Shown here: positions 2,279 to 5,867 of the stretch, piece after piece
Position numbering within the stretch: the first letter of the stretch is position 1
How the letters are laid out: each line of letters starts with the position of its first letter
Notes under the pieces: generated by a model
What the model saw: the letters and a program-made list of their open reading frames with translations, nothing else
Told to the model about the DNA's origin: nothing
Databases searched by the model: none
Program-made: the position numbers and the translations under genes
Assembly: GCA_003567685.1 (NCBI GenBank)
Contig: PWYW01000075.1
Coordinates: 1-38,252, forward strand
DNA from: Gammaproteobacteria bacterium
Lineage (GTDB): Bacteria; Pseudomonadota; Gammaproteobacteria; Xanthomonadales; Wenzhouxiangellaceae
Reading direction: 5' to 3'
Length of the DNA stretch: 38,252 bases

Positions 2279-3286
2279 TCAGGGGTTGCCGCGATTCAGC
2301 AGGCGGTCAAAGAACGCTGCCTGCTCCTCCTCAGTCACGCGGCGAGGGGTAGTGTAGCGCGCTGGCGAGTCCGGATCATCCGGATTGAAGGTGACGCCCC
2401 ACAGGGGACGCTGGCTGCCGGGATCGATGGCATAGCGGAAGTCGCCGACAAACCACTGGCCGTCCTCGTCATAGTCCGGGAAGCGGAACAGCCAGTTGGA
2501 CGAAAAGTGATCAAAGCGGGCCAGGTCATCACCCAGCCGGCTGTCGGGATCAAAGCCGTCGACAAAAAAGCGTTCCACCGAGCCGCCGGGCCACAAACGC
2601 TGGCCGGCGCCGGGCAGGTTGCGAATGGCCAGCAGATGGAAGCGATCGCCGTCATCCACCAGCGCTCGCCACAGGATGATGTTGGCAAACGCCGGCTTGG
2701 CGACCAGGCGCTCGACCGCAATGCCCTCATCGTCCGCCCACTCGCTCAACTTAGCCTCGGCCCGATGGTTTTGAACCGCAGCCAGTGCCATGTAGCCCAC
2801 CAGCCAGATCCAGGCCAGGGCAATGCCCAGCCAGCGTCGGCGCCACAGGCCCAGCGCCAGCAGAATCAGCAGCGGCAGACTGTAGAGCGGGTCGATCACG
2901 CTGATCCAGTTCAGCGCCACCCGATGGTCGGAGAAAGGCCAGAACAGATAAGTACCGTAGGAGGTAAAGGCATCGAGCAGACCATGCGAGGCATAGCCCA
3001 GCGTTGCCCAGAGGTACAGCCAGCCAAACTGGATCCGTTTTCGCAACAGCGGCCACAGCGCCAGGGCCACGGCCAGGCTGCCAATCGGGATGAACGCCAG
3101 CGAATGGGTAAACTGGCGATGGTATTCGATATACAGCAGCGAGTCTTCACTGGAGCGGATCAGCACGTCGAGATCCGGCGCCATGCCGCCAATCCAGCCG
3201 GCCAGAGCCGCTTCGCGCATCTTTTCGCGCCGGGCCGCCGGCAGCGCCCAGAGGCTGCCGAAAATTCCGTGGGTGACTGGATCCAT
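2279..3286 (-). CDS. YdjM-like membrane-bound putative metal-dependent hydrolase
   Basis: This 335-residue protein matches the LexA-regulated YdjM/DUF457 membrane hydrolase family. The N-terminus MDPVTHGIFG, the acidic pair PDLDVLI near residue 38 and HRQFTHSLAFIP near residues 56-67 supply the His/Asp residues thought to bind a metal. Several hydrophobic helices follow, including segments near residues 65-85, 95-110, 130-150 and 155-170. The last ~160 residues are a soluble domain rich in Asp, Trp and Phe. The biochemical function of this family is not established. No strong ribosome site is seen before the ATG at 3286. The neighbour downstream is the AGCS symporter. Confidence 0.8.
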   Translation of the reverse strand: MDPVTHGIFGSLWALPAARREKMREAALAGWIGGMAPDLDVLIRSSEDSLLYIEYHRQFTHSLAFIPIGSLAVALALWPLLRKRIQFGWLYLWATLGYASHGLLDAFTSYGTYLFWPFSDHRVALNWISVIDPLYSLPLLILLALGLWRRRWLGIALAWIWLVGYMALAAVQNHRAEAKLSEWADDEGIAVERLVAKPAFANIILWRALVDDGDRFHLLAIRNLPGAGQRLWPGGSVERFFVDGFDPDSRLGDDLARFDHFSSNWLFRFPDYDEDGQWFVGDFRYAIDPGSQRPLWGVTFNPDDPDSPARYTTPRRVTEEEQAAFFDRLLNRGNP

Positions 3287-3362
3287 GAATTCGCTTTATG
3301 CTGTCAGTTCAACTTCCCGAGTGTAACCAAGACCACGCCATGACCCGTCACCGGTTTTTCTT

Positions 3363-3536
3363 ACTAAGACATTCCCCTTCAAAGCCTCATTCAGCTTGTC
3401 TGCGGGCGTTCGTGGCAAGGCGCCGGCACGCCGGTGTAGCCACCCTACATCAAGTGCCGGGAACGAAGCCCACGGACGCCCACAGGCAAGACCGAAGGGA
3501 ACCACTGAATGTGGCTTTGAAGGGGAATGTCTTAGT
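3363..3536. repeat. ERIC/MITE-like palindromic element, about 174 bp, with 24-bp perfect terminal inverted repeats
   Basis: Bases 3363-3386 and 3513-3536 are perfect inverted copies of each other (24 of 24). Pairing continues inward with gaps: ATTCAG near 3390 with CTGAAT near 3505, an imperfect ~20-base pair (3396-3416 with 3470-3490), CCGGCAC (3423-3429) with GTGCCGG (3454-3460), and TGTAG with CTACA at the tip. The whole unit therefore folds into one long hairpin, as ERIC sequences and some MITEs do. It encodes no transposase. No convincing target-site duplication is visible at the borders. Only one full copy is present in this window. Confidence 0.75.
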
Positions 3537-3873
3537 CATCATCGCCGCCCTGCTTCTGACCGCCTGCCAAAGCGCGCAGGAACCCGACTGCTCACCGCAG
3601 GCAGGCTTCGAACTCGGACAATCCGGCGAGCCGCCAGCGGAGGCCTGCGACGACCGTCAATACCGCGAAAGCTGGCAGCTGGGCGAGACACTGGGCGAAC
3701 TGCAACGCGAACGCGACGACCTGCTCGCCCGCGACGACGATCTGGACACGCTGGTGCAAATGCGCCTGCGCGTGCTCAGCCGCGAAATCCCCGATCTTGA
3801 AACCCTGGCCCGCCTTCGAGGCTTCCTGCCGGCGGCAACGCTGGACGACATCGACGCCCCGGCATACGACTGA
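3511..3873 (+). CDS. Small lipoprotein, possibly DUF2799-like
   Basis: This is a 120-residue predicted lipoprotein. From GTG at 3511 the protein begins VALKGNVLVIIAALLLTAC, a classic lipoprotein signal with Cys19 as the lipidated residue. GAAGGGA lies ten bases before the GTG. The frame is open further upstream, but that part is only repeat sequence. The mature part has CSPQAGFELGQSGEPPAEAC and LGETLGELQRERDDLLARDD, which recall the DUF2799 lipoproteins and predict a C-terminal helix or coiled coil. The start codon and first eight codons lie inside the right arm of the palindromic element at 3363-3536. This suggests that insertion of the repeat supplied or replaced the original start region. 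Function unknown; convergent with sppA. Confidence 0.6.
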   Translation: MALKGNVLVIIAALLLTACQSAQEPDCSPQAGFELGQSGEPPAEACDDRQYRESWQLGETLGELQRERDDLLARDDDLDTLVQMRLRVLSREIPDLETLARLRGFLPAATLDDIDAPAYD

Positions 3874-3927
3874 GGAGCCTCTGAATCACTGTGCGCGAGC
3901 GCGACGGAGCCGTTGCCAGAACGAACC

Positions 3928-3948
3928 GGGGCAGCCAGCGGCTGCCCC
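3928..3948. terminator. Strong stem-loop between the small lipoprotein gene and sppA
   Basis: GGGGCAGCC pairs perfectly with GGCTGCCCC across a three-base loop. The hairpin sits between two convergent genes. There is no T-run on either side, so it is a possible terminator or RNA-stabilising hairpin rather than a textbook intrinsic terminator. Confidence 0.4.
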
Positions 3949-3961
3949 AGACGAGTGACGA

Positions 3962-3990
3962 TTACTAAGACCTTCGTATTTATTCAAGCC
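3962..3990. repeat. Possible degenerate end of the 3363-3536 palindromic element
   Basis: TTACTAAGAC at 3962-3971 is identical to the outer end of the left arm at 3361-3370. After a short divergent stretch the sequence reads TTCAAGCC, close to TTCAAAGCC of the same arm. It may be a decayed solo terminal repeat, but a ten-base match could also be chance. Confidence 0.25.
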
Positions 3991-3995
3991 GGCGG

Positions 3996-5867
3996 TTACA
4001 TCGGCACTTCGCACAGGCAGTGGGCGAACACGCCGGGGCGGCCGTTGCGGGTGGTGGCCATGACCAGTTCAAGGTCCTGCATCAGCGTGCGCTGAAGCTG
4101 CGGCGGCAGGCCGTTGACCAGACCCAAGGCAGACTCGTAGCCGGCCTTGGAAATTACCCGCGCACCCATCTGGCTCAAAAACTGCTGCCAGGGGGCCAGT
4201 TCCGGCTCGACGTAGCGAACGCGGAAATCCTCGCCCAGCCCGGCGATACGCGCAGCCGAGGCCACCGCTTCATCCAGCTCGCCCAACTGGTCAACCAGGC
4301 CGAGTTCCAGCGCCTGGCGACCGGTCCAAACCCGGCCCTGGGCAACCTCATGCACGTCTTCAAGCGACATGTTCCGAGAGGTCGCCACCAGCGTCAGGAA
4401 ATCCTGGTAAGCCGCGTCAATGAAGGTTTCAAGGATGCTGCGCATTTCATCACCCAGTGCGCGATCGGCGCGGAACGCACCGGCCAGCGGCGTGGTGCCG
4501 ACACCATCAACGGTAATGCCGATCTTGCCCAGGGTATCCTCGAAGGTCGGGAACAGGCCAATAACACCAATGGACCCGGTGATCGTGGCCGGGTTGGCCC
4601 AGACCTCGTCGGCGCCCATGGCAATCCAGTAACCACCGGATGCGGCCACGTCGCCCATGCTCACCACGACTGGCTTGCCGGCATCCTGCAAGGCTTTCAA
4701 TTCGCGCCGAATGACTTCCGAGGCAAAGGCACTGCCACCGCCGGAATTCACCCTCAGCACCACCGCCTTGATGTTGTCGTCCTGGGCGGCCTGGCGAATC
4801 AGACGAGAGGTGGAGTCTGCACCAATTGTGCCGGGCGGTTGGTCACCCTCAGTGATCAAGCCTTCGGCCACGATCACGCCAACCTGGCTCTGGCGACCAA
4901 ACACCGGCGTCTCCGGTCGCAAATACTTGTTATGGGCAACCTGCCGGAAGCTGCCGTTATCGTTAGGAGCACCACGGCGAGCCAACTCTGCACGCATTTC
5001 CGGACGTGACACCAGTCGATCCACCAGGCCCTGCTCGAGCGCCATGTCGGCAAAGCTGCCATCGGCCTGTTCAAAATAGTCGACAAAGTTCTGGGTCAGA
5101 TCAATCAGTCGCTGGACCGGCATGCCACGGTTGACCGCGACCATCTCCAGATATTCCTGCCACAATCCACCGAGGAGCACCTCGCTGGCTTCACGGTCGG
5201 CCTCGGACATGTCGGATCGCTCCCAGGGCTCGGCTGCGGACTTGAAGTCGCCGGTCTGGAACAGATTCACCTCGACGCCAATACGATCCAGGCCATCACG
5301 ATAAAAGTTGCGGAAGCGGCTGTAGCCCTCGATCAGGATCATGCCGTCCGGGTCCAACCACACCTCGTCGGCCATCGAGGCCACCAGGTATTGGCCCTGG
5401 CTCATCCAGCCACCATAGGCAACGATGGGCTTGCCCGATTCGCGGAATCGGGTGAACGCAACATTCAACTCGCGCATGGTGCTGGTACCCAGGCCAAGCA
5501 GGCGGTCGGTATCAATCAGCACCTGGGTGATGCGGTCATCGTCGGCGGCCTGGTCCAGCACGGCAACCAGATCGCGCAGGCGAGTCTCGCCACCGGGCTG
5601 ACCCAGCGCCTCATTCACCAGCCGCTCTACCGGACTGCCGCTGAACTCCTCGACAATCAGGCCGTTCGGCTGGAGCACCAGCGTCGAGTCATTCTCGACA
5701 ATCAGCTTATCGCCGCCGCTGAAGATGGCGCCGATCACCACCGCCAGTATGATCAGGAAAAGAATATTGAACACGGCCATACGCAGCGCCGTAACACCGC
5801 GCCAGAAGCCAAGCCATAAACGAATCAGGATATTCGGTTGAGAAGGTTGCGACATCAGAGGGCTCAC
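3996..5867 (-). CDS. sppA: Signal peptide peptidase SppA, 67-kDa type
   Basis: This 623-residue inner-membrane serine protease degrades leftover signal peptides in the periplasm. One transmembrane anchor lies at about residues 31-50, followed by two tandem S49 domains. The catalytic lysine is K209 in TGDFKSAAEPWER and the nucleophile is S410 in GDVAASGGYWIA. Both align with the K209/S409 dyad of the E. coli enzyme, so it looks active. The length matches the long proteobacterial form. The start is uncertain: the GTG at 5867 and the ATG at 5855 (MSQPSQPN) are both possible and neither has a strong ribosome site. The MATE gene lies 63 bases upstream on the same strand. Confidence 0.93.
   Translation of the reverse strand: MSPLMSQPSQPNILIRLWLGFWRGVTALRMAVFNILFLIILAVVIGAIFSGGDKLIVENDSTLVLQPNGLIVEEFSGSPVERLVNEALGQPGGETRLRDLVAVLDQAADDDRITQVLIDTDRLLGLGTSTMRELNVAFTRFRESGKPIVAYGGWMSQGQYLVASMADEVWLDPDGMILIEGYSRFRNFYRDGLDRIGVEVNLFQTGDFKSAAEPWERSDMSEADREASEVLLGGLWQEYLEMVAVNRGMPVQRLIDLTQNFVDYFEQADGSFADMALEQGLVDRLVSRPEMRAELARRGAPNDNGSFRQVAHNKYLRPETPVFGRQSQVGVIVAEGLITEGDQPPGTIGADSTSRLIRQAAQDDNIKAVVLRVNSGGGSAFASEVIRRELKALQDAGKPVVVSMGDVAASGGYWIAMGADEVWANPATITGSIGVIGLFPTFEDTLGKIGITVDGVGTTPLAGAFRADRALGDEMRSILETFIDAAYQDFLTLVATSRNMSLEDVHEVAQGRVWTGRQALELGLVDQLGELDEAVASAARIAGLGEDFRVRYVEPELAPWQQFLSQMGARVISKAGYESALGLVNGLPPQLQRTLMQDLELVMATTRNGRPGVFAHCLCEVPM

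Follow-up and report, generated by a model that had tools for sequence, protein, structure and literature searches.

The 38,252-nucleotide stretch analysed here (the window) comes from a gammaproteobacterium of the family Wenzhouxiangellaceae, and within it a palindrome of 174 bp lies at the 5' end of a lipoprotein gene. This locus raises the question of what the palindrome is, where exactly it entered the gene, and whether the gene can still supply an exported lipoprotein. The features on which the answer depends are listed in Table 1.

The palindromic unit in the window

The unit begins and ends with 24-bp perfect inverted repeats (3363-3386 is the exact reverse complement of 3513-3536, 24/24), and a single mismatch was found across the 31 arm positions of the element. 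In the predicted fold one hairpin takes in nearly the whole 174-bp unit. Folded as RNA, positions 3353-3546 reach -117 kcal/mol, whereas 200 shuffles averaged -61.3 (sd 4.35; z = -12.8) and none was as stable; the fold of 3362-3537 with DNA parameters gave z = -12.4. No gene of the element's own was found in 3363-3536, where there are only stop-free frames. A sequence-only reading of this DNA had reported the 24-bp repeats and the near-complete hairpin, the lack of a gene, and a right-arm GTG (3511) from which the lipoprotein gene is read; all of these agree with the present results, coordinates included.

A fold this strong and specific could also belong to a structured regulatory RNA or a terminator of the lipoprotein locus, with no mobile element involved. 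However, no Rfam family matched anywhere across 3000-4000 up to E = 1, the element matched none of 23 orthologous loci (0/20 in the genus and 0/3 outside it), and its copies sit at unrelated loci. Because the copies are dispersed, a locus-specific RNA or terminator is largely refuted, and we give this explanation almost no weight.

Table 1 Features of the lipoprotein locus (positions of the window)
Feature	Position	Strand	Basis or remark
TATGCT, -10-like hexamer, possible promoter of the lipoprotein gene	3297..3302	+	By eye; TATGCT or TATTCT in 12/16 orthologous loci
GTGTAACCAA motif shortly before the start codon	3321..3330	+	By eye; similar in 14/16 orthologous loci with YdjM
Putative native ATG and first 8 codons (MTRHRFFL)	3340..3363	+	Orthologues
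TA, left insertion flank, expected 2-bp target duplication	3362..3363	+	Right flank 3536-3537 is TC; duplication not intact
Left terminal inverted repeat, type b arm	3363..3386	+	
Palindromic mobile element, short form, 172 bp (CTAAG...CTTAG)	3364..3535	+	Fold, own-genome copies, member comparison
Conserved core with hairpin 1, common to other copies; hairpin 2 of the long form absent	3384..3499	+	
GTG in right arm, possible restart (MALKGNVLVIIAALLLTAC)	3511..3513	+	Predicted in stem
Right terminal inverted repeat	3513..3536	-	
TTG in right arm, possible alternative restart (MKGNVLVIIAALLLTAC)	3517..3519	+	
Rest of putative native signal peptide to presumed lipobox cysteine (IIAALLLTAC)	3538..3567	+	
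Mature lipoprotein, weak DUF2799 resemblance	3568..3873	+	
Solitary, coreless element arm (ACTAAGACCTTCGTATT) next to the 3' end of sppA	3964..3980	+	

Insertion point in the lipoprotein gene

Relatives of the lipoprotein (P0001) were found in 20 other genomes of the genus (21/30 including its own), and the protein bears a weak resemblance to DUF2799 (19.5 bits, below the Pfam cut-off of 25). The neighbours are also shared, with YdjM in 16/20 and SppA in 19/20 of the orthologous loci. The orthologues that were read have ordinary, variable signal peptides, and the first residues encoded by the element arm were not seen in them. Together with the sequence before it, they indicate that the native start is the ATG at 3340, upstream of the element. 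A scan for promoter consensus sequences gave no promoter-like site in 3200-4000.

The eight residues MTRHRFFL from ATG 3340 run directly into the element. When 174 bp were removed, an in-frame, ordinary-looking lipoprotein signal peptide resulted (MTRHRFFLIIAALLLTAC), which runs up to a cysteine that we take to be that of the lipobox; when 172 bp were removed, the frame was broken. Taken with the conserved motif before ATG 3340, this result indicates that the element, with its 2-bp duplication, interrupted a signal peptide that already existed, between its codons 8 and 9. The frame from ATG 3340 is open through the whole element, since the inserted 174 bp make up 58 codons, none of them a stop. 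All three type-b elements tested in this frame (L001, L090 and L112) were open, against 5/33 copies of all types.

Dispersal, host range and target site

The genome of the window (107 contigs) holds the unit and nine other matching places, eight of which match the core (positions 22-137 of the unit or more) and one positions 1-74; the contig-end fragments C57 and C65 were left out of this count, as they may belong to the copies truncated at C93 and C33 as their missing halves. When 41 genomes were searched, matches were found in 14/25 genomes of the same genus and in 0/16 others of the order. An exact core pattern recovered 41 stretches from a collection with one genome per species, of which 40 bear the name Wenzhouxiangella or Wenzhouxiangellaceae in their title and the remaining one is called just 'Gammaproteobacteria bacterium'; from these we infer that the genus of the window, which hosts the family, is Wenzhouxiangella. 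The occurrence of the unit beyond the window favours mobility, as had been proposed when it was read as a dispersed, MITE-like repeat; the opposite expectation, that it occurs only here, failed.

In the SLIZ MAG almost the same element was listed at 15 loci (L080, L081, L088, L092, L094, L095, L104, L106, L108, L109, L111, L117, L118, L119 and L120), many of them at contig ends; 14 have a left flank, and 13 of those flanks are different. That copies so alike lie next to 13 unlike left flanks suggests that the element multiplied recently in this genome. Carriage by a plasmid or phage was rejected: the long form L021 matched none of 72,556 plasmid or 50,697 phage records, and the exact core pattern was absent from viral contigs.

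In a tally that made no demand on the flanks, TA preceded 50/57 distinct copies and 49/57 left arms began with CTAA or CTAG. TA stood at both ends of 23/31 copies with both arms, a count that reads L078 two bases out of register and scores it as not TA/TA, although by eye this copy has TA on both sides. An earlier tally (28 copies, 21 TA/TA) was set aside, since it demanded A before and T after the element and skipped L020, L030 and L071. In L078 the element is nested in the arm of another, and that arm's TA is duplicated. Duplication of TA is a mark of the IS630/Tc1/mariner group, and its presence in this family therefore points to that group. The members are thus short elements with terminal inverted repeats and no transposase gene, found in multiple dispersed copies with a TA target-site duplication, as expected of MITEs, although the window copy itself has TA on the left and TC on the right. 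The AT-rich composition described as typical of MITEs in PMC3049150 was not seen in the window element, which has 58.7% G+C against 61.4% for the whole window.

In L035 (G019) the arm of a family member has a different palindrome, with TTAACCCGGC ends, inserted at TA; it lies directly upstream of the core at 846. Judged by these ends, which are the same as those of the IS630 copies of G045, it is probably a second IS630-type MITE.

Forms, arms and cores of the family

The 33 intact members listed range from 124 to 394 bp, and 19/33 measure 262-265 bp. Members of 262-265 bp contain two hairpins within an outer stem; the second hairpin is missing from two members of 172 bp, the window copy and L020. 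Four enlarged forms of 325-394 bp (L073, L132, L017 and L113) are lengthened within the core hairpins by what appear to be further hairpin modules.

The arms pair within a member rather than across the family. Over the first 31 bases, 96% of positions pair within a member and 63% when the left arm of one member is set against the right arm of another, in a set of 28 members chosen by CTA-, CCA- or CCC-like ends with A before and T after, which partly builds in the constancy of the end bases. In this set 24 nt of arm precede an inner CATTCAG that is nearly constant, and the 20 bases between these end bases and CATTCAG differ between types yet remain paired. Arm column 24 shows a recurring mismatch of the A-A or T-T type (paired in 17/28, unpaired in 11/28). 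Homogenisation of one arm by the other is disfavoured as the sole cause of the paired arms because it should erase this recurring mismatch; it is kept as a possible contributor. Similar cores also occur with other arms, as in L032 and L030, which share 96% of the core and 58% of the arm.

Solitary arms without core or partner were seen in the window at 3964-3980 and in L059, L060, L065, L067, L121, L122, L127 and L128, and several of them end at the base of the inner hairpin. They may be remnants or products of one-ended deletion. A separate palindrome of 151 bp with CTAG ends and an inner CATTCAGC lies at 1849-1999 of L092 and has no match to the core.

Long stop-free frames are so common at this G+C that an ORF spanning a copy says little about whether most copies lie inside genes. 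A Pfam search of 20 neighbouring ORFs gave one clear element wholly inside a domain-bearing ORF: in L090, from another species, the last about 90 codons of a TauE/SafE-family ORF, which follow its domain, are formed by a full-length type-b element (1888-2149). In L038 and L030 the element contains the beginning of the longest ORF and in L075 its end, both of which the longest-ORF rule alone can produce.

An IS630 transposase as candidate mover

DDE_3 (Pfam PF13358) was above its cut-off in 2/30 genomes of the genus. The window's own genome (G000) gave no DDE_3 match, nor was a match of the arms to an IS630 element of the same genome obtained. The locus L079 of a congener (G019) encodes an IS630 transposase (DDE_3, E = 1.4e-43, with a match to NF033545 as well); because this transposase reads as two overlapping frames, it may be inactive.

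The ends flanking the L079 transposase resemble some of the arms of the family. At the right end, 26/33 alignment columns are identical to arm b2 and 23/33 to arm a. Per 1000 shuffled arms, none was as good at this end for arms a, b, b2 and c, one each for e and g, and 361 for d, the commonest arm type, which does not fit this end. At the left end the corresponding numbers were 0 for a, 1 for b2, 17 for c, 116 for b, 182 for e, 597 for g and 617 for d; this end thus fits arms a and b2, but not b (the type of the window copy), d, e or g. Because an inverted repeat had led to these ends, the whole locus was scanned. The ends were the top place for arms a and b2, with scores of 14 and 18 (best of eight control loci 11 and 13); for b, c and e they were top or joint top, no higher than the best controls, and arm d scored best at another place.

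The closest relative of the L079 transposase among 398 genomes of the order is in L153 (48% identity), where a TA-flanked inverted pair beginning with CTAAG ranked second to another inverted pair. The four IS630 copies of G045 were rejected as a source of the arms, since their TTAACCCGGC ends do not match the arms of the family. An autonomous copy with the same ends was sought with three arm types at up to 3 mismatches, and no pair at insertion-sequence distance was found on one contig by this pattern search, which listed close pairs or single arms and cannot judge copies at contig ends.

From these end comparisons, arm types a and b are likely to have been mobilised by an IS630-type transposase. 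The alternative is that a transposase other than IS630 moved the family, or that it is no longer mobile, the likeness of arms a and b2 to IS630 ends being due to remote shared origin or to chance. The lack of DDE_3 in the own genome would suit this explanation, as would the failure of type d arms to match the IS630 ends and the match of type b to one end only. It would leave the TA duplication, the CTAR ends and the coincidence of arms a and b2 with the ends flanking a transposase to be explained otherwise, together with the CTAAG ends of the related transposase in L153, and we consider it unlikely. We therefore regard the window copy as probably a short-form member of a non-autonomous, IS630-type (Tc1/mariner-like) MITE family of one genus, inserted between codons 8 and 9 of the lipoprotein gene.

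Comparison with known repeats

Several short repeats of other bacteria share features with the family. RUP of Streptococcus pneumoniae is likewise a short non-autonomous repeat with a TA target and terminal repeats resembling the ends of IS630-family elements, as far as it is described in PMC2229807 and PMC3049150; it measures 107 bp, has 9-bp terminal inverted repeats and shares its genome with IS630-Spn1. In contrast, the members described here usually measure 262-265 bp, their arms are about 31 bases long, and similar ends were found on a single IS630 element, in another species. The Correia or NEMIS elements of Neisseria, in the account of PMC2229807, have 24-bp terminal inverted repeats, TA ends, two size classes set by an internal segment, and copies in genes with open frames. 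Compared by description only, the family differs from them in host; its internal difference is the second hairpin, and the long form of type b is also open.

The palindrome had been called ERIC-like. This holds for its type: the accounts of ERIC (RU-1) in PMC2229807, PMC2759123 and PMC10969869 describe a dispersed repeat with TA ends, mostly intergenic and sometimes in genes. We do not count it as a member of ERIC. Those accounts give 127 bp, 7-bp terminal inverted repeats and hosts in Enterobacteriaceae and Vibrionaceae, whereas the present family was found, in the searches run, in genomes of one genus only; none of the 40 core stretches titled to family or genus level falls in the ERIC host groups. 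The longer inverted repeats and the two arm types resembling IS630 ends also set it apart from ERIC by description.

The palindromic elements of Rickettsia described in PMC10969869 resemble the window copy in lying in frame within protein genes and being read as open frame. In-frame insertion into genes is the rule for those elements; in the present family, again compared by description only, it was seen for the window copy and for L090, there at the C-terminal end. A signal peptide built by a MITE is known as well, from RU-2/YPAL in Yersinia pestis YPO1552, according to the descriptions in PMC2759123 and PMC2229807. The window case involves a different repeat and host, and here the split ancestral signal peptide can be read from the flanks. 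More generally, palindromic MITEs in genes and in-frame fusions have been published (PMC2759123, PMC2229807, PMC10969869 and PMC5896051).

No published account of such repeats in Wenzhouxiangella was found in the open-licence literature, judged from listings and titles. One paper naming the genus, PMC10715143, has viruses and CRISPR as its subject, judging by its abstract. The family thus looks new, while the kind of event is known from other bacteria (RUP, Correia, ERIC and the Rickettsia elements).

An unrelated palindrome in the same gene of congeners

A palindrome built of a CACGGAA repeat lies between the ATG and the signal peptide of the lipoprotein orthologue in three congeners (L043, L044 and L144, from G012, G016 and G042). 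The frame is open in 3/3, and the length differences keep the frame. By eye, the right arm of the palindrome holds a GTG that lies in frame ahead of the signal peptide. The N-terminal extension of these three proteins is unusually conserved at silent sites in one pair. When seven genomes were searched with up to 2 mismatches, the repeat was found at several places in G012, G016, G022 and G042 and was absent from G000, G006 and G019.

The exchange of arms and cores and these congeners could be drawn into one scheme. It would treat the elements as a modular family whose single conserved, structured core moves among end pairs that are always self-complementary, of at least six unlike types and equal length, each fitted to a different IS630-type transposase; such elements and the unrelated palindrome of the three congeners would have repeatedly rewritten the 5' end of the lipoprotein gene through an in-frame start codon in the right arm. 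We think this scheme as a whole improbable.

What the lipoprotein gene may do now

For the window gene, the following course is preferred. An IS630 transposase, present now or once, would have cut at CTAR ends and inserted the element at TA, and the ORF would have stayed open through the addition of 174 bp, the 58 codons being stop-free in the reading frame. Ribosomes starting at ATG 3340 would open the hairpin and, on reading through, would make a protein in which 58 foreign residues precede the signal sequence and bury it. If any lipoprotein is exported, it would then come, at reduced yield, from a restart in the right arm at GTG 3511 or TTG 3517, either of which would give a short lipoprotein signal peptide. 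The sequence-only reading took the element to supply the start of the gene and suggested that its insertion may have re-fashioned the 5' end and put a long RNA hairpin in the leader. The in-frame GTG in the arm and, from its position, a hairpin in the mRNA are retained here. As the start of the gene that GTG is no more than a possibility, since the orthologues indicate a native ATG upstream, and the hairpin lies inside the coding frame rather than in a leader.

A stronger role for the arm is a possibility to which we give somewhat less than an even chance, namely that GTG 3511 (or TTG 3517) is a working replacement and the main start codon, as the sequence-only reading had it, and is regulated by the hairpin. 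An n-region, hydrophobic stretch and lipobox can all be recognised in MALKGNVLVIIAALLLTAC, the end of AAGGGA lies 10 nt before GTG 3511, the frame downstream is undamaged, and in the three congeners the other palindrome ends in a GTG (seen by eye) at the same point of the same gene. On the other hand, GTG 3511 falls within the stem of the hairpin predicted at -117 kcal/mol, ATG 3340 persists upstream in the same frame, and 3200-4000 holds no promoter-like site.

The gene may instead have been disabled by a recent insertion, in which case the open frame would be coincidental and the ORF not yet decayed. Read-through would bury the signal behind 58 residues rich in Arg and His, and a young insertion would fit arms that are perfect over 24 bp. 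However, no stop interrupts the remainder of the gene, and L001, L090 and L112 are all open in the frame against 5/33 of all types. We put this outcome at about one chance in three, and a dead gene is nearly as likely as the preferred mechanism of read-through and restart.

Significance for the genus

These results document a MITE-like family in a genus for which no such account was found in the open-licence literature. Its window copy is a clean case, in which flanks and orthologues reveal both the ancestral signal peptide and the point of insertion, and in congeners an unrelated palindrome occupies the same 5' coding position of the lipoprotein gene. Two features of the family, its swapping of arms and cores and the mismatch that recurs in its arms, give hints that can be tested on the way in which such elements gain new ends.
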